DNA from: Shinella lacus
Lineage (GTDB): Bacteria; Pseudomonadota; Alphaproteobacteria; Rhizobiales; Rhizobiaceae
DNA length: 64,000 nucleotides
Reading direction: 5' to 3'
NCBI RefSeq assembly: GCF_010994755.1
Contig: NZ_WHSB02000003.1
Location: forward strand, 434,001-498,000
Position 1 is the stretch's first letter. Each line of letters starts with the position of its first letter. The notes under the pieces are model-generated. The model searched no databases. It was not told the origin of the DNA and was given only the letters and a program-made list of their open reading frames with translations. Shown here piece by piece: positions 19,208-36,978 of the stretch. The translations under genes and the position numbers were made by a program.

Positions 19208-19223
19208 GGCTTACCTCCCGCGG

Positions 19224-20318: not shown

Positions 20319-20349
20319 TCAATTGCTCCCGTATCTCTTTTTGTGAAAT

Positions 20350-21120
20350 TCAGTGGATGGTGTAGCCGCCGTCGATGGTGAGCACCGAGCCGGTGACGTA
20401 GCTGGCGGCATCGGAGGCCAGGTACAGCACGGCCGCCGCCACTTCGCTCGGCTTGCCGGTGCGGCCCAGCGGCGTCATGCCGAGCCAGATCTTCGACCAT
20501 TCCGGATCGTCCAGCCCGCCCTGCGTCATGGCGGTTTCGATATAGCCGGGCGCCACCGCGTTGATGCGGATGTTGTTCTTGGCGAATTCGCCGGCCAGCG
20601 ACTTGGTCAGCATGTGCACGCCGGCCTTGCTGGCATTGTAGGCGACCTGGTTCTGCGGAAGATTGCTGATATAGCCGGAGATCGAGCCGATATTGACGAT
20701 CGACCCGCGCCCCGCCGCGACCATCGTCTCGATGGCCGCCCGGCAGCACCAGAAGAGGCCGGTGAGGTTGGTGTTGATCACCTCGTCCCAGGTCTCTGGC
20801 TTGACGTCGAGGCTGTCGCCATGGCGCGCGATGCCGGCATTGTTGACGAGGATATCGAGCCCGCCAAGCTCGGCGGCCGCCTGCTTCACGACCGCCTGGG
20901 CGGCGCTCTCGCTGGAAATATCGGCGGGCAGGTAGAGCGCTTCGATGCCCTTGCCGGCCAGGTGCCGCACCGCCTTTTCACCCTCGTCGCGAGAGCGCGC
21001 GGAGATGGCGATGCGCGCGCCGGCCTCCCCAAGCGCCTCGGCGCAGGCAAGCCCGATGCCTCGACTGCCGCCCGTCACCAGCGCGACACGACCATCCAAT
21101 CTGAAAAGCTCAGCGTACAC
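20350..21120 (-). CDS. SDR family oxidoreductase, first gene of the minus-strand catabolic operon
   Basis: Short-chain dehydrogenase of 256 aa starting with GTG at 21120 behind GGGAGGGG. Its opening VYAELFRLDGRVALVTGG matches the SDRs at 2591 and 34534. Motifs TGGSRGIG, NNAGIARH, serine in IGSISG and YNASK, ending DGGYTIH. It is the promoter-proximal gene and has its own strong promoter with a palindromic operator overlapping the -10 region. Probably a polyol or sugar dehydrogenase. Confidence 0.83.
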   Translation of the reverse strand: MYAELFRLDGRVALVTGGSRGIGLACAEALGEAGARIAISARSRDEGEKAVRHLAGKGIEALYLPADISSESAAQAVVKQAAAELGGLDILVNNAGIARHGDSLDVKPETWDEVINTNLTGLFWCCRAAIETMVAAGRGSIVNIGSISGYISNLPQNQVAYNASKAGVHMLTKSLAGEFAKNNIRINAVAPGYIETAMTQGGLDDPEWSKIWLGMTPLGRTGKPSEVAAAVLYLASDAASYVTGSVLTIDGGYTIH

Positions 21121-21162: not shown

Positions 21163-21175
21163 GTAGTTTAGCTAC
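21163..21175. promoter_or_regulatory. Operator-like palindrome, box C (GTAGTTTAGCTAC)
   Basis: GTAGTTTAGCTAC, a 13-bp near-perfect inverted repeat. Extended to 15 bp it reads TGTAGTTTAGCTACC and fits the HexR/RpiR-type pattern TGTARTNNNAYTACA with two mismatches. It overlaps the predicted -10 of the minus-strand operon. A sister box starts 115 bp away at 21278. Confidence 0.6.
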
Positions 21176-21194
21176 CTTGACAATCGAGTGTCAA
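21165..21194 (-). promoter_or_regulatory. Predicted sigma-70 promoter of the 14-gene minus-strand operon
   Basis: On the minus strand a perfect -35 TTGACA (21194-21189) is followed after 18 bp by TAAACT (21170-21165) as -10. The operator palindrome at 21163-21175 covers the -10 box, which is the classic position for repression. The -35 also forms one arm of TTGAC-N8-GTCAA. Confidence 0.55.
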
Positions 21195-21277
21195 TCCGAA
21201 AATCTATGTCTCAGGGATGGAATTTACCGAAATCAAAGGCAGGCGAGACATAATTCGCGCCGTGATTTCGATAAAAT

Positions 21278-21290
21278 GTAGCTTAGCTAC
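21278..21290. promoter_or_regulatory. Operator-like palindrome, box D (GTAGCTTAGCTAC)
   Basis: GTAGC-TTA-GCTAC, a perfect 13-bp inverted repeat upstream of the operon promoter and close to the 3' end of the GntR gene. It is flanked by AAAAT on the left, like boxes B and C. The 115-bp distance to box C is close to eleven DNA turns, so two bound regulators could loop. The remainder of 21121-21358 shows no gene. Confidence 0.6.
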
Positions 21291-21358
21291 GGGAGGACAG
21301 CAAAATGGGCGTTCAGCCGCGCTACCGTTTTCGGTCGGGCGACGTGGGTGGCGATGTG

Positions 21359-22069
21359 TCAGCGGCGCGTCGTTCGGCGCCGTCCCTTGGCCGGCGCCAC
21401 GGCGGCTTCCGCCTCCCGCGCCGTCACCGCAGCCAGATAATGTTCGCGCGTCGCCTCGATGTGGCGGCCCATGAGGTCCACGATGGCCTCGTCGTCGCCG
21501 GCCGCCACCAGCTCCGCCAGCCGCACATGCTCCTCGAACGAGGTGGCGTTGAGCGAGGGGGCGAGCGACAGGCGGTTGCGCAGCGCCTGCACCCGGAAGG
21601 CGATCAGCTCGTAGGCCTCCATGAGATAGGCGTTGTCGGCAAGCTCGAAGAGCACCCGGTGGAAGCCGCCGTCGAGCGTGCGGTAGAGCTCCGCGTCGTT
21701 GGCGTCGAGCGACTTGCGCATCTTCTTGACGATGTCGGCCCATTGCTTGGCGAGTGCCCGGCGATCGGTGGCAAGCGCCATGCGAAGGGCGGCGAGTTCC
21801 AGCACTTCGCGCAGTTCGGAAAGTTTTCGGACCTGGTTTGCATCCATGTCGAAGACAAACGAGCCACGCTGCGGATGCACCTCAATGAGACCCTGGCGCT
21901 TCAGCACCATCAGCGCCTCGCGCACGGGCGTCTTGGAGACGCCGAGCTCGGTGGCCAGCGCGATTTCCGAGAGCGGTTCGCCGAGCTGGAACACGCCGCG
22001 CACGATGCGGTTGCGTATTTCCTGCGCCGCCAGGTCGGTCAGCGACGGACCGCGGTCGAGTGTATTCAT
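21359..22069 (-). CDS. GntR-family regulator, FadR/FCD subfamily
   Basis: Repressor-type regulator of 236 aa. Winged HTH (about 10-75) with LATELGVSKTPVREALMVLKRQGLIEV, the diagnostic GntR motif, then an all-helical FCD effector domain (about 85-220) with FHRVLFELADNAYL and EEHVRLAELVAAGDDEA, which contribute metal/acid ligands. A basic tail KGRRRTTRR ends it. It is divergent from the block-3 operon at 22191 with 121 bp between, so that operon is its likely target, with a sugar acid or organic acid as effector. Confidence 0.87.
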   Translation of the reverse strand: MNTLDRGPSLTDLAAQEIRNRIVRGVFQLGEPLSEIALATELGVSKTPVREALMVLKRQGLIEVHPQRGSFVFDMDANQVRKLSELREVLELAALRMALATDRRALAKQWADIVKKMRKSLDANDAELYRTLDGGFHRVLFELADNAYLMEAYELIAFRVQALRNRLSLAPSLNATSFEEHVRLAELVAAGDDEAIVDLMGRHIEATREHYLAAVTAREAEAAVAPAKGRRRTTRR

Positions 22070-22130
22070 AGGGTCTCCCTTCCTTGCAGGGGTCGACGCA
22101 GGTTCACCGAGCCCCTCAACTATTTACACT

Positions 22131-22150
22131 GAGATATTAGATATGATACG
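22131..22150. promoter_or_regulatory. AT-rich symmetric element between divergent GntR and Ldh2 genes
   Basis: ATAT-TAG-ATAT at 22134-22144 lies inside the AT-rich patch of the 121-bp divergent region. It is the only symmetric element there and a weak candidate for the GntR operator. It does not match the GTAG boxes found elsewhere in the window. Confidence 0.25.
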
Positions 22151-22190
22151 CCAATTCTCGTCGTCTGCAATCTCCTAGGTTGGGTCCGAT

Positions 22191-23270
22191 ATGTCCGTCC
22201 AGACTCTAGTTGCCCCCGATTTGCTCCAAGCGCGAGTCGAAACTGCGCTGCGCAACGCCGGCGCGTGCGAAGCGTCCGCCACTGCCGCGGTGCGGGCGTT
22301 GATGCATGCCTCGCGCATCGGGGTCGACAGTCACGGCGTGCGTCTGGTGGTCCATTACGACAAGGTTCTGCGCGGCGGACGGGTCAACGGAACGCCGAAC
22401 ATCACGGTCCGCAAGACGGCGGCTGCGACGGCGATTGTTGATGGCGACAATGCGCTTGGCCACCATGCCGCCTATGTCGCGATGGACACGGCGATCGGGC
22501 TGGCGCGCGACAGCGGCATCGGTGCGGTCGGCGTCATCAATTCCTCGCATTTCGGTGCGGCCGGTGCCTATGCGCGGGTCGCCGCGGAAGCCGGTATGAT
22601 CGGCTTTGCGACCACCAATTCCGATAGCGTCGTGGCCCTCTTCCAGGGCCGCGAAGCCTTTCATGGCACGAACCCGTTGGCCTTTGCGGCACCGAGCGTC
22701 GGTGAAAAGCCCTGGTTGCTCGACATGGCGACATCGTCGATCCCGCTGAACCGGCTGCTGCTCTACAAGTCGCTGGGCGTGCAACTGCCGCAAGGCGTCG
22801 CGGTCGACGAGGCGGGCGCGCCGACCACGGACCCCGCTTCGGGCAAGACGCTCCTCCCGCTCGGCGGCGTGGATTTCGCCTTCAAAGGGGCGGCGCTTGC
22901 CGGCGTTGCGACGCTGCTGTCGGCCATTCTTCAGGGCATGACACTCGATCACGCCTTCATCCCCATGGTCGGCGGCGACGATTATTCGACGCCGCGCCAG
23001 ATGGGGCATTTCCTTCTCGCCATCGATCCAGACCGCTTTGGCGGCCGGGACGTCTTCCATGCCGGCATGGCCGCCTATCTGGCGGCTTTGAGGAGCGCGC
23101 CGGCGCAGGAAGGCGGCGAGATCCTGGCGCCCGGCGACCGCGAATGGCGGGTCGAAGCCGAGCGTCTCGTGGCCGGCATTCCGGTCGATCCCGATACCGC
23201 GGCGTTCCTTGAACTGCCGCGGAGCCCGGCCGGACCGGCCGGACATTCCAAGGAGAACACAGCAGCATAA
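22191..23270 (+). CDS. Malate/L-lactate dehydrogenase-family (Ldh2) oxidoreductase
   Basis: NAD(P)-dependent 2-hydroxy/2-keto acid oxidoreductase of 359 aa with the Ldh_2 fold, not a Rossmann fold. Family landmarks: ASRIGVDSHGV(R) near 42 with catalytic histidine and arginine, NSSHFGAAGAYA near 118, TNSDSVVALF and GTNPLAFAAP near 165, DMATSSIPLNRL near 182. The usual PD/GG loop reads PMVGGDDYSTPRQMGHF. Known members act on malate, lactate, ureidoglycolate, 2,3-diketogulonate or delta-1-piperideine carboxylates. It opens block 3 upstream of a CUT1 importer, suggesting a sugar acid or polyol substrate. No clear ribosome site precedes the ATG. Confidence 0.82.
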   Translation: MSVQTLVAPDLLQARVETALRNAGACEASATAAVRALMHASRIGVDSHGVRLVVHYDKVLRGGRVNGTPNITVRKTAAATAIVDGDNALGHHAAYVAMDTAIGLARDSGIGAVGVINSSHFGAAGAYARVAAEAGMIGFATTNSDSVVALFQGREAFHGTNPLAFAAPSVGEKPWLLDMATSSIPLNRLLLYKSLGVQLPQGVAVDEAGAPTTDPASGKTLLPLGGVDFAFKGAALAGVATLLSAILQGMTLDHAFIPMVGGDDYSTPRQMGHFLLAIDPDRFGGRDVFHAGMAAYLAALRSAPAQEGGEILAPGDREWRVEAERLVAGIPVDPDTAAFLELPRSPAGPAGHSKENTAA

Positions 23271-23322
23271 CCAATCACGCGCCGGGGCAGGGAGCCCACG
23301 GCCGTCAACCGGGAGGAATGAA

Positions 23323-24678
23323 ATGAAATCCATGCTGAAAAAGGGTTTGCTGGTCGCAGCGCTGATGACCTCGACGGCGCCGGTCGCCATGGCGCAGGAA
23401 TGCGTCGACGCCGACCGCGTGCCGATCACCTGGTCGACGATCGCCGGCTTCTATACTGATGCCATGGCGAACCTCGTCGCCGGCTTCGAGGCGAAGAACT
23501 GCGTCAAGGTCAATGTCGTCAACATCGACAATTCGCAGCTCTACAACAAGCAGGTCATCGAGATGGTCGGCCAGACCGGCGCCTATGACGTCGTGACGCT
23601 GGAAACCTCCGAAAAGGCGGAATTCGCCGAAAACGGCTTCATCCTGCCGATGACGGACTACTTTGCCGACAAGAAGGCGCAGCTCGACGACGTGGCGCCG
23701 ACGCTCGCAGCCCTGACGACCCAGTACAAGGGCGACGTCTGGGGCCTGCCCTATTACACCTACACCGCCGGCTACATCTATCGCGCCGACCTGTTCGAGG
23801 ATGCGACCGAGAAGGAAGCCTTCAAGAAGCGCTTCAACTATGATCTCGCCGTACCCACCACCTGGGCGCAGCACCGCGATATCGCCGAATTCTTCACGCG
23901 CAAGGCCGGCGAGAACCTCAAGGGCGAAGCGCTCGCCAAGGACTTTTACGGCGTCGGCTTGATGGCCGGTCCCTTCCCGGAAATCCAGGACGAAATGTCC
24001 GGCGTGCTCTGGTCGCAGGGCGCGGACTGGCTGACGGACGAAGGCAAGGTGCCGGTCGACGCGGTCGAAAAGGCCATGAACGACTATCTGGCGCTGATGA
24101 AATTCGCCCCGCCGGCAGCGCTTACCGTCACCTATGACGGCGTGATGAACCAGATGAAGGACGGGCAGATCGCCCAGACCTATTCCTTCTTCCTCGATCA
24201 ATGGCCGAATGCCGTGACGACCGAAACCAGCGTGCCGGGCGCCAAGATGGGCGTTGCCGAAGCGCCGGAGAAGAAGGCCTATATCGGCGGCTTCCTGCTC
24301 GCCGTCTCCGCATCGTCCGCCCATCCGCAGGAGGCGATGGACTTCGTCGCCTATATCGGCGGCCATGATGCGCAGATGGAGTTCGCCAAGGCGGGCGGCA
24401 CCTCGACGCTGATGAGCGTGCTCTCCGACCCCGCCTTTGCCGCACCGGAAAGCCGCACGAAGACCGGCCACTTCTCGACGCTGCTGAAGATCTTCGATTC
24501 CATGAAGGGTTTCCGCTCGAACCTGTTCGACACTCCGTTCGGCGCGAAGATCTACAACACGATGCAGATCCCGCTGCAATCGGCGGCTGCCGGCCAGATC
24601 GACGCCCGTGCGGCGGCCGAACAGCTCGCTGCCGAAGTCGAGAAGATTTGCGGCGGCCCGTGCCCGATCGGCAAGTGA
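23323..24678 (+). CDS. Extracellular solute-binding protein, family 1 (CUT1)
   Basis: Periplasmic binding protein of 451 aa. Start at 23323 follows GGGAGG (23311-23316); the first about 23 residues are a signal peptide ending APVAMAQ. The mature part has the SBP_bac_1 pattern: VITLETSEKAEFAENGFI-like opening lobe, LPYYTYTAGYIYRADLF, VPTTWAQHRDIAEFF and IGGFLLAVSASS. Cysteines near both ends (EC.. and ICGGPCPIGK) may form disulfides. It belongs to the permease and ATPase genes that follow. Ligand not identifiable; CUT1 importers take oligosaccharides, polyols or glycerol derivatives. Confidence 0.88.
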   Translation: MKSMLKKGLLVAALMTSTAPVAMAQECVDADRVPITWSTIAGFYTDAMANLVAGFEAKNCVKVNVVNIDNSQLYNKQVIEMVGQTGAYDVVTLETSEKAEFAENGFILPMTDYFADKKAQLDDVAPTLAALTTQYKGDVWGLPYYTYTAGYIYRADLFEDATEKEAFKKRFNYDLAVPTTWAQHRDIAEFFTRKAGENLKGEALAKDFYGVGLMAGPFPEIQDEMSGVLWSQGADWLTDEGKVPVDAVEKAMNDYLALMKFAPPAALTVTYDGVMNQMKDGQIAQTYSFFLDQWPNAVTTETSVPGAKMGVAEAPEKKAYIGGFLLAVSASSAHPQEAMDFVAYIGGHDAQMEFAKAGGTSTLMSVLSDPAFAAPESRTKTGHFSTLLKIFDSMKGFRSNLFDTPFGAKIYNTMQIPLQSAAAGQIDARAAAEQLAAEVEKICGGPCPIGK

Positions 24679-24700
24679 TCGAAGCATCGATCCAAGCTTT

Positions 24701-24756
24701 GCATGGTGGGCACCCGCCCACCATGCAGTTTGATTTGAAAGGCGGGTTTGCCCGCC
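24701..24756 (+). other. Two tandem hairpins between binding protein and permease genes
   Basis: First hairpin: 11-bp perfect stem GCATGGTGGGC / GCCCACCATGC with a 4-nt loop (24701-24726). Second: GGCGGG / CCCGCC with loop TTTG (24741-24756). No T-run follows. The placement right after the binding-protein gene suggests protection of its 3' end or partial attenuation ahead of the permease genes. Confidence 0.65.
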
Positions 24757-24781
24757 CAAAAGTTTCTTCTGGAGGAGTTTG

Positions 24782-25723
24782 ATGTCGCAGTCGCTATCCG
24801 TGTCGGCGTCGCAGGAAAAAGGCGTGGCGAGCCCAACCGCCATGTCCGATCGCTGGTTCTCGATCCTTCTTGTCGTGCCTGCGATGTTGGTCATCCTTGT
24901 CTTCGCGCTGCTGCCGCTCGCCTATGCGCTCGACGTGTCCTTCCGGTTCGCGGACCTGACGCGCGGCCGCATCGGCGATTTCGTCGGCCTCGACAACTAC
25001 CGGACGGTCCTGCATGACAGCGCCTTCTGGAGTTCCGTCTGGGTCACGCTGAAATTCACGCTGACGGCCGTCACGCTCGAAATGGTGCTGGGCATCGCCA
25101 TCGCCTTCCTGATCCACGGCGCAACCGTCGGCAAGGGCGTCATCCGCAGCCTGATGATCCTGCCGCTGGCCACTTCGGCGGCGGTGACGGGCCTGTTCTG
25201 GCGCTATCTCTATGATCCCCAGTTCGGCCTGATCAACTATTTCCTCGGTCTCATCGGCCTGCCCGAACCCAACTGGCTCGGCGACTATACGATCGCGCTC
25301 TGGTCCGTCATCCTGTTCGACGTCTGGCAATGGACGCCCTTCGTGGCGCTGATCGCGCTTGCCGGTTTGCAGGCGCTGCCGAAGGAGCCGTTCGAGGCCG
25401 CCGAATTGGATGGCGCCAGCACCTTCCGCGTGCTGCGCACCCTGACCTTCCCGATGCTGAAGCCGGTGCTGTTCCTCGTCCTCGTGCTGCGCACCATCGA
25501 CAGCGTGCGCCTCTACGACGCGGTGGCGGTGCTGACGCGCGGCGGGCCGGGCACGGTGACGGAAACCATGACCTTCTATCTCTATCGCACGGGGCTGAAG
25601 CTGTTCCGGATGGACTATGCCTCCACCATGGCGATCTTCTTCCTCTACGCCATGCTGGTCGCAAGCCTCTTCGCGCTTCGCCCGCTGCTCACCCAATTTT
25701 CGTCGCGCGCATCCGAAGGCTGA
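24782..25723 (+). CDS. Sugar ABC transporter permease (CUT1, first)
   Basis: Inner-membrane permease of 313 aa with six hydrophobic segments. The EAA loop reads EPFEAAELDGASTFRVLRTLTFPML near 215, the site that contacts the ATPase. ATG at 24782 follows GGAGGAG by 5 bp. MalF/UgpA type; partner permease begins 10 bp after its end. Confidence 0.88.
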   Translation: MSQSLSVSASQEKGVASPTAMSDRWFSILLVVPAMLVILVFALLPLAYALDVSFRFADLTRGRIGDFVGLDNYRTVLHDSAFWSSVWVTLKFTLTAVTLEMVLGIAIAFLIHGATVGKGVIRSLMILPLATSAAVTGLFWRYLYDPQFGLINYFLGLIGLPEPNWLGDYTIALWSVILFDVWQWTPFVALIALAGLQALPKEPFEAAELDGASTFRVLRTLTFPMLKPVLFLVLVLRTIDSVRLYDAVAVLTRGGPGTVTETMTFYLYRTGLKLFRMDYASTMAIFFLYAMLVASLFALRPLLTQFSSRASEG

Positions 25724-25733
25724 GGAGATCGCC

Positions 25734-26594
25734 ATGCTGCAACGTGAATCAAGCTTCCCGAAGGAAGCGCTCCGCTACGGCCTGATCGTCATCGTGCTCG
25801 GCTTCATCGTGTTCCCGATCGCCTGGATGATCATCACGTCGTTCAAGCCGGCCGATGCCATCATGGTGTCGCCGCCGCGCTTCCTGTTCACCCCGACGCT
25901 GGATAATTACGTCCACGCGATCTACGACAAGAACTTCCTGTTCTACATCAAGAACACGCTGTTCATCTCCGTCGCCTCGACGATCATCGTCGTCATCACC
26001 GGTTCGCTCGCCGCCTACAGCTTCGCGCGCTACAATGTCGGCGACGGCCATATCCTGTTCTTCATCCTGTCGACCAAGATGTTCCCGGCGATCGCCGTCA
26101 TACTGCCCTACTTCCTGATCTTCCGCGAAGTCGGCAGGACGGGGGCCGGTAAGTTCCTCGGCATCGGCCTCGACCAGCCGGGCGCGCTGATCATCTCCTA
26201 TACGGTGTTCAACCTGCCCTTCGCCATCTGGCTGCTGGTGTCGTTCTTCCAGGATATTCCGCGCGAACTCGAACATTCCGCCCGCCTCGACGGCCTGTCG
26301 CGGCTGAAGGTGCTGGCCAAGGTCGTCTGCCCGCTCGCAGCCCCCGGCATCGCAGTCACCGGCGTCTTCACGCTGATCTTCAGCTGGAACGAGTTCCTGT
26401 TCGCCTACATCCTGACCCGCAAGGCCGCGAGCACCGTCACCGTCGGCGTCGAATCCTTCTTCACGCTGCAGGGCATTCTCTGGGGGCCTGTTGCGGCAGC
26501 CGCCACCATCAGCGTCCTGCCGATGTTGGTCTTCGTGCTCGCCATGCAACGCTACATGGTGCGCGGCCTCACCTTCGGCGCTGTGAGAGGATAA
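25734..26594 (+). CDS. Sugar ABC transporter permease (CUT1, second)
   Basis: Inner-membrane permease of 286 aa, MalG/UgpE type, six hydrophobic segments. The EAA loop is RELEHSARLDGLSRLKVLAKVV near 180, where the usual EAAxxDG reads EHSARLDG. Ribosome site GAGGAG (25722-25727) precedes the ATG at 25734. A typical late motif FSWNEFLFAYILT confirms the family. Confidence 0.88.
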   Translation: MLQRESSFPKEALRYGLIVIVLGFIVFPIAWMIITSFKPADAIMVSPPRFLFTPTLDNYVHAIYDKNFLFYIKNTLFISVASTIIVVITGSLAAYSFARYNVGDGHILFFILSTKMFPAIAVILPYFLIFREVGRTGAGKFLGIGLDQPGALIISYTVFNLPFAIWLLVSFFQDIPRELEHSARLDGLSRLKVLAKVVCPLAAPGIAVTGVFTLIFSWNEFLFAYILTRKAASTVTVGVESFFTLQGILWGPVAAAATISVLPMLVFVLAMQRYMVRGLTFGAVRG

Positions 26595-26598
26595 GATC

Positions 26599-26841
26599 AT
26601 GAGCTTCAGTCAAGGCTGGGATACCGGCTTCCGCGTCATCCTTCTCTATGTCGGCGTCGTCTTCGTCTGGCTCGGTTTCATCGAGCCGTATTTCGCCAGC
26701 CAGTCGATGTCGGTGGTCATCATGAACATCGTTGCTTTCGTGATCTCGGCGGCCTTCGTCGTGCGCGCCCGCAGCCGCTTTATCGCCGAGCGCCAACAGG
26801 CGGAGGCGGAAGTTGCCGCCCTCATGCAGGAGGACGTCTGA
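26599..26841 (+). CDS. Small two-helix membrane protein embedded in the ABC operon
   Basis: An 80-aa protein with two strongly hydrophobic stretches (about 12-30 and 38-56) and a charged C-terminal tail rich in E, A and Q (RFIAERQQAEAEVAAL) likely to be helical in the cytoplasm. It follows the second permease by 4 bp, and its stop overlaps the next ATG (TGATG). GAGAGG precedes its start. I do not recognise the family. Rhizobial glycerol importer operons also carry a small membrane protein gene, but the sequence does not look like that one. Tight coupling implies a role in the transporter. Confidence 0.7.
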   Translation: MSFSQGWDTGFRVILLYVGVVFVWLGFIEPYFASQSMSVVIMNIVAFVISAAFVVRARSRFIAERQQAEAEVAALMQEDV

Positions 26842-27950
26842 TGTACGAACTGAAATCGGTCCACAAGCGCTACGGTCTCGCCAAGGTCGCCCTTCGTAAG
26901 ATCGATCTTACGGTGCGCGACCGCGAATTCCTTGTGATCTACGGGCCGGCCGGTGCCGGCAAGAGCACGCTCCTCAACATACTCGCCGGCATCACCAAGC
27001 CGACCAGCGGCGACGTGTTGCGCAACGGCGTCTCCATCCTGCGTGTACCGCCGGAAAAGCGCGATGCGGCGATGGCCTTCGAAAACTATGCGCTCTATTC
27101 GCACCTCTCGGTCGGCGAGAACCTGGCCTTTCCATTGAAGGCCCGCGGCATCGGCCGTGCGGAAGTCGAGGAACGCGTGAAGCGAATCTCCGGCATTCTG
27201 GGCATCGGCCACTTGCTCGATCGACGCCCCGGCTTCCTCTCTGGCGGCCAGCGCCAGCGCGTGGCACTCGGCCGCGCGATCATCCGGCCGGCGGACATTT
27301 ATCTGCTCGACGAACCGGTCGGCCATCTCGACGCGAAACTGCGCCACAAGATCCGTGCCGAACTCAAGGCGCTCGCCGAGGACTTGTCGGCGACTGTCGT
27401 CTTCACCACGACGTCGTCACGCGAGGCCCTGGCGCTTGGCGACCGGGTGGCCGTGCTCAATGCCGGCAAGCTGGAGCAGCTCGGCAAACCGGCCGATCTC
27501 TATCATCGGCCGGCAAACGCTTTCGTCGCCTCCTTCGTCGGCGATCCGCCGATGAGCTTCATTTCCGTGCAGCCGCGCCGCCATGACGGCAGGGTCGATT
27601 TCGTGACGGCGGATGGCATGCCGGTCGCCTCGCTTGCGGCCGAGGCCGTCAGCGATCTCAACGAAGAGGTCGGCTCGAAAATCCAGGTCGGCTTCCGCTC
27701 CAACGAGGTGCGGATCGCCCAGGAAAGTGACTCCAATGCGCTGCGCGGCCGCGTCGATGTCATCGAGAACCTCGGCTACATGAAGATCGCCCTTGTCGGC
27801 ATCGGCAATGACCAGGTTTCCGTCTCGGTGCCCGCCGGCACGTCGCTCGGTGTGGGCGAAACGGTCGCCATCGCCTTCCCGCGCGATGCCGTCCACTTGT
27901 TCCAGAATGCCCGGGCGGTCACGCACGCCACGCCTTCCGCAGGAGTTTGA
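26841..27950 (+). CDS. Sugar ABC transporter ATPase 1, degenerate at the switch histidine
   Basis: MalK/UgpC-like ATPase of 369 aa. Walker A GPAGAGKST (35-43), signature LSGGQ (133-137) and Walker B IYLLDE (153-158) are intact, but the Q-loop glutamine is E81 (AFENYALY) and the switch histidine is replaced: FTTTSSREA where the neighbour has YVTHDQEEA, giving T191. A C-terminal TOBE-like regulatory region follows (about 240-360). A site lacking the switch histidine should hydrolyse ATP poorly. The next gene encodes a second ATPase with an intact histidine, so the two likely form a heterodimer with one active site. Confidence 0.87.
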   Translation: MYELKSVHKRYGLAKVALRKIDLTVRDREFLVIYGPAGAGKSTLLNILAGITKPTSGDVLRNGVSILRVPPEKRDAAMAFENYALYSHLSVGENLAFPLKARGIGRAEVEERVKRISGILGIGHLLDRRPGFLSGGQRQRVALGRAIIRPADIYLLDEPVGHLDAKLRHKIRAELKALAEDLSATVVFTTTSSREALALGDRVAVLNAGKLEQLGKPADLYHRPANAFVASFVGDPPMSFISVQPRRHDGRVDFVTADGMPVASLAAEAVSDLNEEVGSKIQVGFRSNEVRIAQESDSNALRGRVDVIENLGYMKIALVGIGNDQVSVSVPAGTSLGVGETVAIAFPRDAVHLFQNARAVTHATPSAGV

Positions 27951-27954
27951 CCCC

Positions 27955-29049
27955 ATGGCCTCCATCAAAGCCGAAAGACTCGTCAAGCGCTACGGCGCCG
28001 TCCAGGCCGTGCACGGCATCGATTTCGAGATCGCCGATGGCGAGTTCGTCGCCATCCTCGGTCCGTCCGGCTGCGGCAAATCCTCGACCATGCGCATGAT
28101 CGCGGGCCTGGAGACGGTCACTGAAGGCTCTATCTATTTCGACGGCAAGCGCGTCAACGATGTGCGTGCGCGCGACCGCAACGTCGCGATGTCGTTCGAG
28201 TCCTACGCGCTCTACACGACCATCTCGATCTACGAGAACATCGCGTTCCCGCTGCGCTCGGCCAATGTCGACAGCAAGGAGATTGATCGCCAGGTCCGCG
28301 ACATTGCCGAGAAGATGGAGCTGACGGCGCTTTTGCACCTGAAACCCAAGGGCCTTTCCTCGGGCCAGGCGCAGCGTGTCGGTCTGGCGCGTGCACTGGT
28401 GCGCAAACCTGAAGTGTTCCTGCTCGACGAGCCGATCTCGCATCTCGACACACGCCAGCGCTACCGCATGCGCCGCTTCATCAAGAGCCTGCACCAGAAG
28501 TTCAACTACACGATGATCTACGTCACCCACGATCAGGAGGAGGCCTTGGCGCTCGCCGACCGCGTCATGGTGATGAGCGACGGCGAGATCCAGCAGATGG
28601 CGGTGCCGGACGAGGTCTATGCCCGGCCGAAGAACGCCTTCGTCGCCGGCTTCGTCGGCGAGCCGCCGATCAACTTCTTCGACTGCCGCGTGGCGGCGGC
28701 GGATGGCGGTTGGTCGATCGAGTTCGAAGGCCGCAAGCTTGCCTTGCCCCAACGCCTGCATGCGGCGGCACAGGATATCGGCGATGGCGGGCTTGCCGCC
28801 ATCCGCCCACACTTCCTGTCGATCGGCGGCGACAGCCCGCTGCGTGTCGATGGCAAGGTCTTCATCACCGAGGAATTGCAGGACCAGAACCTGATCTTCG
28901 TCGATGTTGGCGAGACGCGCTTCACGCTAGTCGCCCATCCCTCGGTGACGCCCAAGCGCGGCGAGGCCGTGCCGGTGTCGATCGATCCGGATCACCTGCT
29001 GCTCTTCCCGCGCTCGCAGGCCGGCAAGGTGGAGAGCATCGTCGCATGA
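27955..29049 (+). CDS. Sugar ABC transporter ATPase 2 (MalK/UgpC-like)
   Basis: ATPase of 364 aa. Walker A GPSGCGKS (36-43), Q-loop position E82 (SFESYALY), signature LSSGQ (134-138) with a G-to-S change, Walker B VFLLDE (154-159) and switch histidine H192 in YVTHDQEEA. A TOBE-like tail (about 240-364) follows. Start at 27955 is 4 bp after the previous stop, with AGGAG at 27941-27945. In a head-to-tail dimer its Walker site would pair with the intact LSGGQ of ATPase 1. That composite site would have consensus Walker A, Walker B, signature and switch histidine, apart from the Q-loop glutamate. Confidence 0.88.
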   Translation: MASIKAERLVKRYGAVQAVHGIDFEIADGEFVAILGPSGCGKSSTMRMIAGLETVTEGSIYFDGKRVNDVRARDRNVAMSFESYALYTTISIYENIAFPLRSANVDSKEIDRQVRDIAEKMELTALLHLKPKGLSSGQAQRVGLARALVRKPEVFLLDEPISHLDTRQRYRMRRFIKSLHQKFNYTMIYVTHDQEEALALADRVMVMSDGEIQQMAVPDEVYARPKNAFVAGFVGEPPINFFDCRVAAADGGWSIEFEGRKLALPQRLHAAAQDIGDGGLAAIRPHFLSIGGDSPLRVDGKVFITEELQDQNLIFVDVGETRFTLVAHPSVTPKRGEAVPVSIDPDHLLLFPRSQAGKVESIVA

Positions 29050-30707
29050 GCTACGACCACATCGTCGTCGGCGGGGGAACGGCGGGCTGCCTTGCGGCGG
29101 GCAAGCTCGCGGGCGAGCATGGCGCGCGCGTGCTCGTGCTGGAGGCCGGGCCGGATGACCGCAACCCGCTGATCCGCATGCCCGCCGGCTTCGTCAAGCT
29201 GCTCGGCGTCGAGAAATATATGTGGTTCTACAAGTCCGTGGCGCAGGCGCGGCTCGGCGGCCGCAGGCCCATCGTCCCACAGGGCCGCGTGCTCGGCGGC
29301 GGGTCGTCAGTCAATGCGATGGTCTATATGCGCGGCCAGCCGGCGGATTACGACGGCTGGGCCGACGAGATCGGCGACGAGCATTGGTCCTATGATGCGC
29401 TGCTGCCCTATTTTACGGGCATGGAGGACAATGCGCGGCTGAACGACGACTATCATGGCGTCGGTGGCCCGTGGAAGGTCTCCGATCTTGACCACATCTG
29501 CGAACTCTCCCGCGCCTTCGTGCTCGCCGCGCAGGGCATCGGCCTGCCGCACAACAGCGACTTCAACGGCCGCAGCCAGCGTGGCGTCGGCGCCTATCAG
29601 GTGACGACCCGCGATGGCCGGCGCTGCTCCGCGGTCGATGCCTTCCTGCGGCCTGCCATGGCGAGTGGCCGGCTGGAGGTAAAGACCTCTTGCCTGGTGC
29701 ATTCGCTGATCATCGAGGACGGCCGCGCGGTCGGCGTGCGCTATTCGCAGGGCGAGGGGCGGACGGTGTTGGAAGCCCGCTGCGACGGCGAGGTGCTGCT
29801 TGCCGCCGGTGCCATCGCGACGCCGAAGTTGCTGATGCTCTCCGGCATCGGCCCCGCTGATCATCTCAAAACCCACGGCATCCACGCGCTAGTCGATTTG
29901 CCCGGCGTCGGCGCCAATCTTCAGGACCATACGGAGACGCCGGTCGTGGCGCTCTGCAATGGTCCCTATGGCTATTACGGCCACGATCGCGGCTGGAAGC
30001 AGATGCGCAACGGCCTCGAATATCTTGTCAACCGCACCGGGCCGGTGACGTCCAATGGCGTGGAGGCCGGCGCATTCTTCGATCCGGACGATCTCTCCAA
30101 TGATCCAAAAATCCAGCAGTTCTGCGTGCCGACCGTCTATCTCGACAAGGACCATACCGACCAGCAGGCAAGCCACGGCCTGACGCTGAATTCCTGCGTC
30201 GCCAAGCCGCGGTCGCGGGGCTCGGTGCAGCTTGCCTCGGCCGACCCGAAGGACCAGCCGCTGGTCGATCCGAACTATCTGGCCGATCCCGAAGACCTGC
30301 GCCTGTCGATCGGCGGCGTGCGCCGCGCCCGCGAAATTCTTCAGCAGGAACCGCTGCGTTCGATGATCGCGCGAGAAATCTTCCCCGGTCCGGACAAGAT
30401 GTCCGATGCGGACCTCGCCGAACATGCGAAGCGCTTCGTCAAGACCGTCTATCACCCGGTCGGTACCTGCCGCATGGCGCGCGAAGGCGACATCGGCGGC
30501 GTGCTCGGTGCCGATATGCGGGTGCGCGGCGTCGAGGGGCTTCGGGTCATCGATGCGTCCGCAATCCCCACCATCATCGCCGGCAACACCAATGCCGCCG
30601 TGCTGGTCGTTGCCGACAAGGCGGTGGAATTCATCACCGGCGCGAAACGCCGCCAGCCTGCGGGCATCGCGCCACGGCGCGAGCCCAGCACTCTCCAGAC
30701 AGCTTGA
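29046..30707 (+). CDS. GMC-family FAD-dependent oxidoreductase, choline/alcohol dehydrogenase-like
   Basis: Flavoprotein of 553 aa. N-terminal ADP-binding motif VVGGGTAGCLAAGKLA with the GMC glutamate in LVLEAGP; second signature PQGRVLGGGSSVNAMVYMRG near 80; GMC signature 2 GAIATPKLLMLSGIGP near 262; catalytic HPVGTCRM near 475 and the final asparagine region IAGNTNAAV. ATGA overlap with ATPase 2 ties it to the importer. It oxidises a primary or secondary alcohol group of a polyol or alcohol; the electron acceptor could be quinone or oxygen. No signal peptide is seen, so it is cytoplasmic. Confidence 0.87.
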   Translation: MSYDHIVVGGGTAGCLAAGKLAGEHGARVLVLEAGPDDRNPLIRMPAGFVKLLGVEKYMWFYKSVAQARLGGRRPIVPQGRVLGGGSSVNAMVYMRGQPADYDGWADEIGDEHWSYDALLPYFTGMEDNARLNDDYHGVGGPWKVSDLDHICELSRAFVLAAQGIGLPHNSDFNGRSQRGVGAYQVTTRDGRRCSAVDAFLRPAMASGRLEVKTSCLVHSLIIEDGRAVGVRYSQGEGRTVLEARCDGEVLLAAGAIATPKLLMLSGIGPADHLKTHGIHALVDLPGVGANLQDHTETPVVALCNGPYGYYGHDRGWKQMRNGLEYLVNRTGPVTSNGVEAGAFFDPDDLSNDPKIQQFCVPTVYLDKDHTDQQASHGLTLNSCVAKPRSRGSVQLASADPKDQPLVDPNYLADPEDLRLSIGGVRRAREILQQEPLRSMIAREIFPGPDKMSDADLAEHAKRFVKTVYHPVGTCRMAREGDIGGVLGADMRVRGVEGLRVIDASAIPTIIAGNTNAAVLVVADKAVEFITGAKRRQPAGIAPRREPSTLQTA

Positions 30708-30718
30708 GGACTACGCCG

Positions 30719-31246
30719 ATGCCTCCCATGAAGACCGATCCCAATCCGCGCATGCCTTACCAGTTTCCCATGCCGAAGGAGTCGCTGCCGGATATCGTCA
30801 TTCCGGACGCCATTCCCCTCGACGACCGGGTCTGGGTGCCGCAGGGCACGAATGTCTGGTTCCGCCCGCTCTGCCTCAACCGCTCCGCCGGCTACTGGAT
30901 GAACCTGCTGAAGGTTCGCAAGTCCGGCGTGCTGAGCCGCCACCGGCATCCGCAGGCGGTGCACGGCTTCGTGCTGAAGGGCCGCTGGCACTATCTGGAG
31001 CATGACTGGGTCGCCGAAGAAGGCGGCTACGTCTTCGAGCCGCCGGGCGAAACACACACGCTGGTCGTCCCCGACGATGTCGAGGAGATGATCACCTTCT
31101 TCCAGGTCAACGGCATCATGTATTACGTCGATGCTTACGGCGAGCCGCTCGGCTTCGAGGACGTGTTCACCAAGATCGACATGTGTCGTGCGCATTACGA
31201 GGCGGTTGGGCTGGGAGCGGATTATGTCGACCAGTTCATCCGCTGA
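30719..31246 (+). CDS. Cupin protein, 2,4'-dihydroxyacetophenone dioxygenase-like
   Basis: A 175-aa single cupin. Metal ligands are visible as two histidines in SRHRHPQAVHGF and a third in PPGETHTLVV, the three-histidine site of DAD-type and acetylacetone-cleaving dioxygenases. GAGGA lies 8 bp before the ATG at 30719. Its end overlaps the next SDR gene by 23 bp. In this setting it may cleave a diketone or alpha-hydroxyketone produced by the GMC or SDR enzymes, or act as an isomerase or sensor; this is inference. Confidence 0.72.
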   Translation: MPPMKTDPNPRMPYQFPMPKESLPDIVIPDAIPLDDRVWVPQGTNVWFRPLCLNRSAGYWMNLLKVRKSGVLSRHRHPQAVHGFVLKGRWHYLEHDWVAEEGGYVFEPPGETHTLVVPDDVEEMITFFQVNGIMYYVDAYGEPLGFEDVFTKIDMCRAHYEAVGLGADYVDQFIR

Positions 31247-32015
31247 CGGGCGGACCAGCGCGATCGGCAACCCCGCCGCCTACCTTCGCCCCGGCCTGTT
31301 CGAGGGCCGTCAGGTGCTGGTAAGCGGCGGGACCTCCGGCATCGGTGCTGCGATCTGCCAGGCCTTCGTCGCGCTCGGCGCGGACGTGGTGGCGACGGGC
31401 GTCACCGACGCCGAGATCGCCGCCGCCGGAGACCGGCCCGAGATGAAGGGTGCGCTCTTCGCCACGCTCGACGTGCGCGACAAGTCGGCCGTCGATGCCC
31501 TCATCGCCGGCCTGCCACGGCTCGATCATGTGGTGAACTGCGCCGGCATTATCCGGCGAAATGACGAACTCGAACCGGACGTCTTCGCCGAGGTCGTCGA
31601 TATCAATCTCAACGGTTCCATGCGCGTCTGCGCCGCCGCGCGTCCGCGCCTTGCGGAAACCGGCGGCACGATCGTCAACACTGCTTCCATGCTGTCGTTC
31701 TTCGGCGGCGGGCTGGTGCCCGGTTATTCGGCCTCCAAGGGCGGCATCGCGCAGCTCACCAAGTCGCTGGCGATTGCCTATGCGGCAGACGGCATTCGCG
31801 TCAATGCGATCGCACCCGGCTGGATCGCCACGCCGCTGACCAAGGGCCTGCGTGAAAACGCGGAGCGCAACGCGGCCATCGTCGCCCGCACGCCGCTCAA
31901 CCGCTGGGGCGAACCGGCCGAACTTGCCGGCGGCGTCCTTTATCTCTCCTCGCCGCTTGCGAGCTTCGTTACCGGCAGCGTGCTGGTCATCGATGGCGGC
32001 TACCTGATCACATGA
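31224..32015 (+). CDS. SDR family oxidoreductase
   Basis: Short-chain dehydrogenase of 263 aa, with a 20-residue N-terminal lead before LFEGRQVLVSGGTSGIG. NCAG replaces the usual NNAG; YSASK and DGGYLIT are present. Paralogue of the SDR at 8123-8881. Start at 31224 has GGGAG upstream and overlaps the cupin gene by 23 bp, which points to translational coupling. Probable sugar or polyol dehydrogenase. Confidence 0.8.
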   Translation: MSTSSSADGRTSAIGNPAAYLRPGLFEGRQVLVSGGTSGIGAAICQAFVALGADVVATGVTDAEIAAAGDRPEMKGALFATLDVRDKSAVDALIAGLPRLDHVVNCAGIIRRNDELEPDVFAEVVDINLNGSMRVCAAARPRLAETGGTIVNTASMLSFFGGGLVPGYSASKGGIAQLTKSLAIAYAADGIRVNAIAPGWIATPLTKGLRENAERNAAIVARTPLNRWGEPAELAGGVLYLSSPLASFVTGSVLVIDGGYLIT

Positions 32016-32023
32016 GGCACCCT

Positions 32024-33019
32024 ATGAAGGCGATTGTTGTTTCCGATGCAAAGGCCCGGCTTGACGATGTGGCCCTGGCCGACCTGCCGATCCCTGAGCC
32101 CGGTCCTGGCCAGTTGCGCCTCAAGGTCATCGCCGTCTCGATCAACCCGGTCGACTGGAAGCTGGCGCTCGATCACAAGCCGGAATGGATCTATCCCCAT
32201 GTGCTGGGGCTCGATGCCGCCGGCATCATCGACGCGGTCGGTCCCGGCGTTGAAGGTTGGAAAGTCGGCGAACGGGTGGTGGTGCACAACAACCTCTGGA
32301 AGTCCGGCGTCTTTGCCGAATATTGCCTGGCGCCGGCCCACGCGACATCGCGCCTGCCTGAAGGCATCAGCTTCACGGATGCGGCCGCCGTTCCCTGTGC
32401 CGGTTACACCGCCTATCAGGCGCTCTTCCGCAAGGCGCGGATCGAGGCGGGGCAGACCGTTCTCATCCAGGGCGCGAATGGCGGCGTCGGCGGGTTTGCG
32501 ACGCAGCTTGCCCATCAGGCGGGCGCGAAAGTGATTGCGCTGACGCGTGCCGAACATTTCGATGCCGTGCGCGCTTTCGGTGCCGATATCGTCTTCGATT
32601 ATCGCGATCCGGATTTGCTGCAAAAGGTGAAGGCCGAGACGGAAGGCGGCTACGGCGTGGACGTCATGGTGGAAGTGGCGAACCCCGGCGACGCCCGCAA
32701 GTCGCTCGCCTTCGTGCATTATAACGGGCATCTCGTATCGGTCGATCCGCTGCCTGTCATGACCGATGTGCCGTCCTATACCTATGCCGCTTCCATCCAC
32801 GAGATCGGGCTCGGTGGCGCCTACAATGCCGGCCATGTGCCCACCCAGCGGGACTTCGCCCGCATGGGCGATGACCTGATGGCGCGGCTTGCGGCGGGCA
32901 AGCTCGATCCGATGGTGGAGGAGATCGTCACGCTGGAAGACATTCCGGATGCCTTGCAGCGCCTGCGTGCTCGCGCGGTGACGGGCAAGATCGTCGCCCG
33001 CGTCGTGCCGGATGCCTGA
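32024..33019 (+). CDS. MDR-family NADPH-dependent reductase (quinone oxidoreductase/zinc-type ADH fold)
   Basis: Medium-chain dehydrogenase/reductase of 331 aa. GroES-like N-domain with INPVDWKLA and GLDAAGIIDAVGPGV, then a Rossmann motif IQGANGGVGGFATQLA near 150. Cysteines and histidines for catalytic or structural zinc are missing, so this is the quinone oxidoreductase-type branch that uses NADPH to reduce enones, quinones or reactive carbonyls. ATG 32024 (GAGG 6 bp before) is preferred over the overlapping ATG at 32012. Confidence 0.82.
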   Translation: MKAIVVSDAKARLDDVALADLPIPEPGPGQLRLKVIAVSINPVDWKLALDHKPEWIYPHVLGLDAAGIIDAVGPGVEGWKVGERVVVHNNLWKSGVFAEYCLAPAHATSRLPEGISFTDAAAVPCAGYTAYQALFRKARIEAGQTVLIQGANGGVGGFATQLAHQAGAKVIALTRAEHFDAVRAFGADIVFDYRDPDLLQKVKAETEGGYGVDVMVEVANPGDARKSLAFVHYNGHLVSVDPLPVMTDVPSYTYAASIHEIGLGGAYNAGHVPTQRDFARMGDDLMARLAAGKLDPMVEEIVTLEDIPDALQRLRARAVTGKIVARVVPDA

Positions 33020-33048
33020 TGACAACACAGCACTACGGGAGGAAAGAC

Positions 33049-34485
33049 ATGCCCAGGAACACTCACTACATCAACGGCCGGTTTGTCGAGGACAGCGCCT
33101 CCGACCGCATCGCCGTCTACAACCCGGCAACCGAGGAGCAGATCGCGGAAATCCCCGATGCGTCTGCCGAGACCGTCGACGCCGCCGTGGATGCGGCCCG
33201 CAAGGCACAGCCCGGCTGGGCCGACCTGCCGCCGATTGAGCGGGCGGGTTACGTCAAGGCGATCGCCGGCAAGATTCGCGACAAGGTCGATGTGCTGGCC
33301 GAGACGATTTCCCGCGAGCAGGGCAAGACGCTTGGTCTAGCGCGCGGCGAGGTGCTCGGCATGGCCGGACTGATGGACTACATGGCCGAGTGGGCACGCC
33401 GCATAGAGGGCGAGATCATCGCCAGCGATCGCAAGGGCGAGACGATCTACCTGAACCGCGTGCCGATCGGCGTCGTCGCCGGCATCCTGCCCTGGAACTT
33501 TCCGTTCTACCTGATCGGCCGCAAGCTCGCGCCGGCGCTGGTGGCGGGCAACACGATCGTGGTGAAGCCCAGCGAGGAGACGCCGCTCAACGCCTTCCTC
33601 TTCGCGGAAATCGCGGATGAGGTGGGCCTGCCGAAGGGCGTGTTCAACATGGTCTCAGGCCGCGGCCGCACGACGGGTGCCGCCCTTTCCGGCCACACCG
33701 GCATCGACCTCGTCAGCTTCACCGGCAGCGTGCCGACGGGCGTCGCCATCATGGAGGCGGCGGCGAAGAACCTCACGCGGGTCAATCTGGAACTCGGCGG
33801 CAAGGCGCCGGCCATCGTGCTGAAGGATGCCGATCTCGACCTCGCGGTGGAGGCGATCACAGCCTCGCGGATCATCAACACCGGTCAGGTCTGCAATTGC
33901 GCCGAACGCATCTTCGTCGAGCGCCAGGTGGCGGACGATTTTACCGAACGCTTCATCAAGCGCATGTCCACCGTCAGCTATGGCGACCCGCTCACGGAGC
34001 GCGATGTCGATATGGGGCCGCTGGTCAATGCGGTGCAGCTTGGCAAGGTGGAAACCATGGTCGACCGGGCACGGCAGGCGGGCGCCACCGTGGCGCTTGG
34101 CGGACAGCGGGCCGATCGCAACCGCGGCCACCACTATGAGCCGACGGTGCTGACGGGCTGCACGCCGGACATGGAGATCATGCGCAAGGAAATTTTTGGC
34201 CCCGTCGCGCCGATCGCCGTGGTCAATGATGCCGACGAGGCGGTCTACCATGCCAACGACACCGAATACGGCCTGACATCCTCGCTCTATACGCAGGATC
34301 TCAACAAGGCGATGCAGGTCACGCGGCGCTTGCAATTCGGCGAGACCTATATCAACCGCGAGAATGGCGAGGCCTACCAGGGCTTTCACGCCGGCCGCAA
34401 GAAATCCGGCATCGGCGGTGCGGACGGCAAACACGGCTTCTACGAGTATATGGAGACGCAGGCCGTCTACATCCAGCACGGGTGA
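33049..34485 (+). CDS. aldA: AldA-type lactaldehyde/glycolaldehyde dehydrogenase
   Basis: NAD-dependent aldehyde dehydrogenase of 478 aa, normal AldA length. The active-site segment NTGQVCNCAERIFV with the nucleophilic cysteine and LELGGKAP with the catalytic glutamate are AldA-like, as is the end HAGRKKSGIGGADGKHG. GGGAGG at 33037-33042 sets the start at 33049; an earlier ATG at 33019 overlaps the previous stop. It would oxidise lactaldehyde or glycolaldehyde released by aldol cleavage to lactate or glycolate, the expected end step for the aldolases encoded in the facing operon. Confidence 0.83.
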   Translation: MPRNTHYINGRFVEDSASDRIAVYNPATEEQIAEIPDASAETVDAAVDAARKAQPGWADLPPIERAGYVKAIAGKIRDKVDVLAETISREQGKTLGLARGEVLGMAGLMDYMAEWARRIEGEIIASDRKGETIYLNRVPIGVVAGILPWNFPFYLIGRKLAPALVAGNTIVVKPSEETPLNAFLFAEIADEVGLPKGVFNMVSGRGRTTGAALSGHTGIDLVSFTGSVPTGVAIMEAAAKNLTRVNLELGGKAPAIVLKDADLDLAVEAITASRIINTGQVCNCAERIFVERQVADDFTERFIKRMSTVSYGDPLTERDVDMGPLVNAVQLGKVETMVDRARQAGATVALGGQRADRNRGHHYEPTVLTGCTPDMEIMRKEIFGPVAPIAVVNDADEAVYHANDTEYGLTSSLYTQDLNKAMQVTRRLQFGETYINRENGEAYQGFHAGRKKSGIGGADGKHGFYEYMETQAVYIQHG

Positions 34486-34533
34486 GGGTGGCCGCGAGGC
34501 ATGGGCCGCGACCTGCGGCCGGAAAGGAACGGG

Positions 34534-35307
34534 ATGTATCTTCAGAAATTCGATCTGTCCGGCCGCGTGGCGGTGGTCACCGGTGCCGGGCAGGGGATCG
34601 GGCTTGCCTGCGCCGAGGCGCTCTGCGAGGCGGGCGCGCATGTCGTGCTCACCGATATCAGCACTGAACGCAGCGAAGCCGGCCGCGCGGCGCTGGCCGC
34701 CAAGGGCTATTCCGCCGAGGCTGACGTGATTGATATCGGCGACAGCGCGTCGGTCAATGCGGTGGCGGACCGGCTGGCAAGTGCCGGCCGGGCGGCGGAT
34801 ATCCTCGTCGCCAATGCCGGCATCGCCCAGGCGGGCGTGCCTGGGGAGGACCTGTCAGATGCCGATTGGGAGCGGATGATCAACATCAACCTCAACGGTG
34901 CCTTCCGCTCGTGCCGCGCCTTCGGGAAACACATGCTGGCGAAGGGCAAGGGATCGATCGTCACCATCGGTTCCATGTCTGGCACCATCGTCAATAGGCC
35001 GCAGCAGCAGGTCCACTACAATGCGGCAAAGGCCGGCGTGCACCACATGACCCGCTCGTTTGCCGCCGAATGGGCGACGCGCGGCGTGCGGGTCAATTCC
35101 GTGGCGCCGACCTATATCGACACGCCGCTGCTGACCTTCGCCAAGGAGGACAAGCCGATGTACGAGCAATGGCTGGACATGACGCCGATGCACCGGCTCG
35201 GCCATCCGGACGAGATTGCCGCAATCGTGCTGTTCCTCGCCTCCGACGCCTCCAGCCTGATGACGGGTTCGATCGTCACTGCGGATGCCGGTTACACCTG
35301 CTGGTAA
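34534..35307 (+). CDS. SDR, galactitol/polyol dehydrogenase-like
   Basis: Short-chain dehydrogenase of 257 aa. Start at 34534 is supported by GGAAAGG and by the shared opening MYLQKFDLSGRVAVVTG. Motifs TGAGQGIG, NAGIAQ, GSMSGTIVNRPQ, YNAAK and the ending LDMTPMHRLG..ADAGYTCW. It closely follows the polyol (galactitol) dehydrogenase pattern and is the closest sibling of the SDR at 2591. Last gene of block 3. Confidence 0.82.
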   Translation: MYLQKFDLSGRVAVVTGAGQGIGLACAEALCEAGAHVVLTDISTERSEAGRAALAAKGYSAEADVIDIGDSASVNAVADRLASAGRAADILVANAGIAQAGVPGEDLSDADWERMININLNGAFRSCRAFGKHMLAKGKGSIVTIGSMSGTIVNRPQQQVHYNAAKAGVHHMTRSFAAEWATRGVRVNSVAPTYIDTPLLTFAKEDKPMYEQWLDMTPMHRLGHPDEIAAIVLFLASDASSLMTGSIVTADAGYTCW

Positions 35308-35332
35308 GGCCGCAGGTGGCATTTATCTCGCT

Positions 35333-35384
35333 GCCCGCGCTGCAATTTCACGGCGCGGGCGCAAGACTTGCCGAAGCTTTCGGC
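35333..35384 (+). terminator. Weak tandem hairpins at the end of block 3
   Basis: GCCCGCGC / GCGCGGGC with a 12-nt loop (35333-35360) is followed by GCCGAA-GCT-TTCGGC (35370-35384). Neither has a clean T-run, so termination here is only probable. They are the only stem-loops after the last gene of the operon. Confidence 0.4.
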
Positions 35385-35403
35385 CTTGAATCATTATCCT
35401 GAC

Positions 35404-35421
35404 ATGCTATACGTACAACAT
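35404..35421. promoter_or_regulatory. 18-bp near-palindrome ATGCTATACGTACAACAT
   Basis: ATGCTATACGTACAACAT matches its reverse complement at 14 of 18 positions, with all four differences being purine/purine or pyrimidine/pyrimidine, centred on TACGTA. The core TTGTACGTA (minus strand) is reminiscent of GntR/FCD operators. It lies in the 433-bp gap between blocks 3 and 4, upstream of the GTAG boxes. Confidence 0.35.
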
Positions 35422-35510
35422 GACAAATTGAGCTTTTAGCCGGTGCCGTCCGTAGCTGGACAGAGCCCGCGCGCAAAAATTTGGTGCGCCTCGCGCCCGA
35501 AAAGAATTAA

Positions 35511-35523
35511 GTAGCTTAACTAC
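35511..35523. promoter_or_regulatory. Operator-like palindrome, box A (GTAGCTTAACTAC)
   Basis: GTAG-CTTAA-CTAC, followed by ATT. Extended to 15 bp, AGTAGCTTAACTACA fits TGTARTNNNAYTACA with two mismatches. It lies 117 bp upstream of box B, mirroring the C/D pair at the minus-strand operon. Confidence 0.58.
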
Positions 35524-35627
35524 ATTCTGACGTGGTTGATTGGTTGAATTCGATCCGCCACGACGTTGCTTTTGCGCTAAATTCACTGAAATCGACGCAA
35601 GAGATTGTGATTATAATCGCAAAAAAT

Positions 35628-35640
35628 GTAGTTGAATTAC
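35628..35640. promoter_or_regulatory. Operator-like palindrome, box B (GTAGTTGAATTAC)
   Basis: GTAGTTGAATTAC with flanks gives TGTAGTTGAATTACC, a one-mismatch fit to the HexR/RpiR-type pattern and the best match in the window. It overlaps the predicted -35 element of the block-4 promoter. Confidence 0.6.
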
Positions 35641-35660
35641 CTTATCGCTTTGTCTAGCAT
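35632..35660 (+). promoter_or_regulatory. Predicted promoter of block 4
   Basis: TTGAAT (35632-35637) and TAGCAT (35655-35660) are separated by 17 bp, about 80 bp before the binding-protein start. Each hexamer matches consensus at four positions or better. Box B overlaps the -35, so bound regulator would block polymerase. Confidence 0.4.
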
Positions 35661-36928: not shown

Positions 36929-36942
36929 GGTTTCTCCCAGGA

Positions 36943-36978
36943 CGCGGGGCGCATCTTCTCGTGGAGAGGTGCCCCGCG
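36943..36978 (+). other. Strong hairpin after the block-4 binding-protein gene
   Basis: CGCGGGGC / GCCCCGCG forms 8 perfect pairs, extended by G-T and C-G pairs and by an inner CTC/GAG stem. It stands in the 128-bp gap before the ATPase gene, as in the other two importers here. Likely stabilises the binding-protein mRNA or limits readthrough. Confidence 0.6.

Follow-up and report, generated by a model that had tools for sequence, protein, structure and literature searches.

Helically phased pairs of RccR-like boxes accompany an RpiR-family regulator gene in Shinella lacus and its relatives

A sugar-catabolic island of Shinella lacus carries two pairs of palindromic boxes, and among relatives such pairs are linked to the gene of an RpiR-family regulator, are conserved across genera and mostly keep their helical phase while their spacing varies. 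Judging from sequence comparison, the boxes are very probably the operators of the RpiR protein encoded in the island, and it is likely, if less firmly so, that a tetrameric RccR-like repressor bridges the two operators of a pair and loops the promoter. A likely regulator, its operators and its regulon can hereby be named for the island. Regulator and box are of a known, RccR-like kind, and the regularly phased operator pair would be the new element. DNA looping by RpiR-family tetramers has been put forward as an open proposal (PMC12713135), and among open PMC papers we found no description of phased RpiR operator pairs.

The window, that is, the whole stretch of DNA analysed, comprises 64,000 nt of the S. 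lacus assembly GCF_010994755.1 (NZ_WHSB02000003.1, positions 434,001-498,000, forward strand), and its features are collected in Table 1. The sequence-only reading from which this work started had placed 13-mers at 21163, 21278, 35511 and 35628, with spacings of 115 and 117 bp, and all of them are present as claimed. In the window, GTAGYTNARYTAC gives seven strand matches at four places, with 0.00 expected from 100 dinucleotide shuffles, and the looser GTARYNNNRYTAC gives four matches, all of them the four boxes, against 0.06 expected. The genome scan for the motif that the same reading had suggested revealed it to be rare: in the own genome (7,043,451 bp) GTAGYTNARYTAC occurs without mismatch at these four box places only, and TGTARYNNNRYTAC occurs at seven places in the 7.04 Mb, four of them being the window boxes. 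Shuffles and permuted PWMs served as controls; no rate was taken from a backward-pattern control, since the own genome is much richer in the backward word (with one mismatch, 202/206 against 18/16 for the forward word, and 34/30 against 5/3 in a second comparison). A terminator-like structure of 5 pairs is called at box 21278 for the minus strand, with 0.4 such sites expected in shuffles, which could speak for chance palindromes or terminator hairpins; nevertheless, the expected box counts are near zero and conservation across genera refutes this explanation, so that its probability is practically negligible and the terminator reading of box 21278 was rejected.

Table 1. Features of the window discussed in the text (window coordinates)
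Feature	Coordinates	Strand	Remarks
Putative operator A-proximal	21163..21175		GTAGTTTAGCTAC; over the -10 of minus-strand catabolic operon A
Putative operator A-distal	21278..21290		GTAGCTTAGCTAC; 115 bp (10.95 turns) upstream of A-proximal
Putative operator B-distal	35511..35523		GTAGCTTAACTAC
Putative operator B-proximal	35628..35640		GTAGTTGAATTAC; over the -35 of transporter operon B; 117 bp (11.14 turns) from B-distal
Promoter A	21165..21194	-	TTGACA (21194-21189), 18 bp, TAAACT (21170-21165)
Promoter B	35632..35660	+	TTGAAT (35632-35637), 17 bp, TAGCAT (35655-35660)
RpiR-family regulator, HexR/RccR type (HTH_6 + SIS)	12733..13626	-	Proposed binder of all four boxes
Operon A	8123..21120	-	Family matches; layout suggests a single transcript
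Operon B	35741..40508	+	Family matches; layout suggests a single transcript
GntR/FCD regulator gene	21359..22069	-	Adjoins operon A; rival binder, judged not to bind the boxes

The RpiR gene that had been noticed within the first operon does encode a protein of this family, with PF01418 (HTH_6) at 79.2 bits and PF01380 (SIS) at 71.5 bits, both above cutoff. Among NCBIfam models it matches the HexR subfamily NF008451 best (282.1 bits, just under the curated cutoff of 296), and among solved structures 8k3b is the closest in sequence (E 1.7e-67), with 124 of 279 aligned residues identical in a gap-free alignment. This structure is the RccR/KDPG complex, reported to be a tetramer (PMC10810197), and crystal structures of the RpiR family are described as tetramers (PMC12713135); the main text of another study, where the word tetramer is absent, treats RccR as a dimer (PMC5489143). 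The published RccR target, the 15-bp palindrome TGTAGT-N3-ACTACA, is nearly the same as the putative box in the window, and the aceE promoter has two such boxes, 68 bp apart, which seem to act cooperatively and have hypersensitive DNA in between (PMC5489143); RccR has in addition another, 28-bp type of site. Nevertheless, the Pseudomonas protein, which senses KDPG, governs central carbon metabolism whereas the window regulator belongs to a local catabolic island, and the aceE spacing differs from the 115 and 117 bp of the window. The boxes had also been likened to the published HexR pattern, a likeness that we can uphold, and the protein is indeed HexR/RccR-like but remains under the HexR cutoff; moreover, Pseudomonas HexR is reported to act on TTGT-N7/8-ACAA (PMC5489143, PMC5902321). 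With regard to the HexR role at zwf, edd and eda of the ED pathway, our examination covered the local island, beyond which mismatch-free GTAGYTNARYTAC has no place in the genome.

The connection between boxes and regulator was traced in a family sample of 394 genomes and an order sample of 397, the own genome being counted in both, where orthologs (E<=1e-70) were found in 24 and 19 genomes, respectively. By pattern-only search, a pair was present in 9 of the 24 family genomes with an ortholog against 5 of the 370 without (Fisher p 3.8e-9), and in 3 of the 19 order genomes with an ortholog against 1 of the 378 without (p 3.6e-4); the strict pair pattern thus catches just 9/24 and 3/19 of the ortholog genomes. 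Of 21 genomes of the genus, four have an ortholog (88% identity or more); the tight box pattern is found in six, these four and two others, in each of which it occurs at a single place and forms no pair. All other loci were selected through the RpiR gene, and only these pattern searches in family, order and genus are free of that choice. Four of the six pair-bearing genomes without ortholog (G057, G062, G317 and G600) carry different, G+C-rich GTAG...CTAC palindrome pairs, 105-107 bp apart. Additionally, a lone box of high score (27.3) was seen at L167:2474 in G012, a genome without close ortholog, whose best RpiR match has 31% identity.

A comparison with sister species had been proposed as well, and it was made on 54 ortholog loci (44 under G handles, the window and nine named loci) encoding 52 different proteins; of 21 named loci, L024-L026 (31-40% identity) were excluded, as were nine others whose contigs match included G-handle contigs in length. 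Box pairs less than 400 bp apart, at a PWM score of at least 15, were found in 51 of the 54 loci, 60 pairs altogether, with a PWM trained on the 54 loci themselves; against its 127 sites, 20 column-permuted PWM controls averaged 1.8, and none of them contained a pair. The remaining loci are G475, where a weak box (score 9.5) lies 105 bp from a strong one, and G253 and G125, with both boxes below 15, at 63 and 62 bp; a scan of L024-L026 yielded no box. A search of 367 phylum genomes for close, aceE-like pairs (spacings 63-93 bp) gave no match and lends no support to generality beyond this ortholog group.

The regulator assignment of the sequence-only reading is strengthened by this co-occurrence, by the closeness of the protein to RccR and HexR and by boxes that persist without a visible GntR/FCD gene. 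It is very improbable that the GntR/FCD protein binds the boxes instead: the gene adjoins pair A in the window, as it does in seven further loci of the 54, whereas in 43 of the 51 paired loci the fetched DNA holds no match of at least 40% identity, and G356, whose fetched locus is without any match, keeps both pairs. On these grounds we rejected it as the binder. The idea of a two-operon regulon likewise gained support, in G017, G018, G356 and G002, the transporter operon of the last lying about 144 kb from the regulator gene and still having a pair (137 bp). Furthermore, in G178, L022 and G701 alike one more box stands alone between the genes for DeoC and RpiR, and G178 has a further pair, with a spacing of 115 bp, next to an SDR gene; the regulon therefore probably includes more promoters there.

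Adding the G002 transporter-operon pair to the 60 pairs gives 61 spacings. From whole 10.5-bp turns, 57 of them deviate by at most 0.2 turn and 59 by at most 0.3 turn, as looked for in looping operator pairs; the two spacings out of phase are 204 and 278 bp, and the one of 281 bp deviates by 0.24 turn. Up to 200 bp the spacings fall into classes of 61-63, 104-106, 114-117, 124-128, 137, 146, 167-171 and 188 bp. For these eight classes, drawn after the values had been seen, the V test at 10.5 bp gives V 0.90 with p 2.5e-5 (7.5e-4 with the period scanned); for all eleven classes p is 0.008, and 0.054 in the phase-free R test. The phase-zero statistic peaks at 10.5 bp in three of four sets and at 10.45 for all classes, and the phase-free R statistic at 10.55, 10.7, 10.85 and 10.9 across the four sets and near 10.85 over all pairs. 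Lac repressor phasing is described as weak at about 300 bp (PMC2682762), with which the long out-of-phase exceptions would fit. Between relatives, whole-turn differences are seen within the same genus (117 versus 128) and in G321/G224 (114 versus 104), so that the eleven-turn spacing noted at the outset is not only supported but widened to a range of 6 to 18 turns, relatives differing mostly by whole turns. On the RpiR tree of 41 loci the core-promoter spacing class changed at least 13 times, an approximate count, as this is a quick tree with long branches and open forks. Such variation, with a period of about 10.5 bp, amounts to an evolutionary spacing experiment made by nature, and looping is therefore testable with a few reporter constructs.

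The position of the boxes relative to the promoters agrees with what the reading had claimed, namely that one box of each pair covers a promoter element. Box 21163 lies over the minus-strand -10 TAAACT of promoter A, in a promoter block conserved in nine aligned loci including the window, and box 35628 over the -35 TTGAAT of promoter B, which is nearly invariant in eight aligned loci including the window and does not appear in the output of the consensus scanner. The nine loci of pair A show no variation in ATTGACA and GTCAAGGTA and preserve the box half-sites, and the DNA between proximal and distal box is poorly conserved; the eight loci of pair B all share the 14-base TGTAGTTGAATTAC unchanged, with TARCAT next, and the inter-box DNA shows large length differences. 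The distal box of each pair lies upstream. A proximal operator on the promoter with a distal one upstream is the layout of classic loop repressors. Two further palindromes were observed here. The exact inverted repeat TTGACA-N6-TGTCAA at 21177-21194, over the -35 of promoter A, is kept exactly in seven of the nine aligned loci, persists in G356, a locus without GntR/FCD match, and could be a second operator; it is the sole exact match in the window, and with up to three mismatches there are six matches against 10.0 by chance, hence no excess. The near-palindrome TTGTGATTATAATCGCAA at 35604-35621, just upstream of box 35628, was not seen in the other seven aligned pair B loci.

In the mechanism that we propose, each 15-bp box would be occupied by an RpiR dimer by way of the HTH domains, and two such dimers, joined by their SIS domains into a tetramer, would bridge both boxes of a pair. 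The resulting loop of 115-117 bp in the window would hold the proximal box over the -10 (A) or the -35 (B) and thereby bring about repression, and a phosphorylated pathway intermediate at the SIS interface might derepress both operons together. It is improbable that the RpiR operators act singly without a loop, the distal box being a roadblock, an activator site or the site of another promoter. In many relatives the pair lies between divergent genes, so that the two boxes could serve two promoters, both boxes standing there in the core divergent loci, and for Pseudomonas HexR each of the zwf, edd and gap-1 promoters is listed with a single range of operator positions (PMC5902321). In the window, however, as in the relatives nearest to it, each pair is ahead of one operon only, and whole-turn spacing over 6 to 18 turns is not required of independent sites. 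A little less probable still is that the spacing is set by a third factor (HU, IHF or RNA polymerase) that cooperates in a phase-dependent manner, rather than by RpiR bridging. SiaR is an RpiR-type regulator, and GalR loops with HU, which counts in favour of such a factor. In Haemophilus, furthermore, SiaR together with CRP is reported to depend on the face of the helix (PMC2946308), but between the boxes of pairs A and B the DNA shows little conservation, and no fixed third site is therefore seen. Returning to bridging by RpiR, we lean, with reservation, towards a more general statement: the SIS-domain RpiR regulators of the clade would be looping repressors, a phosphosugar-responsive tetramer bridging two operators, with selection holding helical phase and not distance across Hyphomicrobiales and Dongia (Rhodospirillales), and spacing would evolve in quanta of one turn.

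GalR at gal OE/OI has two palindromic operators about 11 turns apart. The window pairs resemble the GalR/LacI systems in having two palindromic operators, and differ in that GalR and LacI are of the LacI family and not SIS-domain proteins and that looping is proven there, while it is inferred in the window. Within the RpiR family, pneumococcal NanR likewise has several boxes in its own gene cluster and a tetramer stabilised by phosphosugar, looping being one of two models weighed; unlike the proposed repressor, it is an activator with an 18-bp motif, and the available part of the preprint describes no phased pair (PMC12713135).

As to the effector, KDPG had been considered a candidate, and the orthologs speak against it. 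Across the 54 ortholog rows, five of the nine RccR contacts to KDPG are retained (S139, H164, S183 and K270 in 54/54, R277 in 53/54 with one gap), S185 is T in 50 and S in 4, and S188 is T in 51 and S in 3, so that the four phosphate-contacting serines of RccR are S or T in all 54. H148, however, is Q in 54/54, and R152 is L in 52/54 and M in 2/54. Because these two of the nine contacts are replaced, KDPG is probably not the effector. In RccR the R152A exchange makes KDPG binding undetectable (PMC10810197), and therefore another phosphorylated sugar probably takes this role. The doubt about KDPG also draws on its aldolase, a KDPG/KHG aldolase homolog being found in 35 of the 54 loci only, some of which end at contig ends.

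The genes of the two operons are those of a sugar-catabolic island. Operon A has 13 genes with family matches, the ORF 17037-17681 being outside that test: two FGGY kinases, a DeoC-type and a KDPG/KHG aldolase, an SDR and further SDRs, an Fe-ADH, a 2-hydroxyacid dehydrogenase, a UlaG-like metallo-hydrolase, the RpiR gene and a shikimate-dehydrogenase-like protein are encoded in it. Operon B encodes a sugar ABC transporter (Peripla_BP_4, ABC_tran, BPD_transp_2) and a psicose-epimerase-like protein. The shikimate-dehydrogenase-like protein (15437-16390) gave no Pfam match at 0.001, and it is found in 54/54 ortholog loci, a constant partner of the RpiR regulator.
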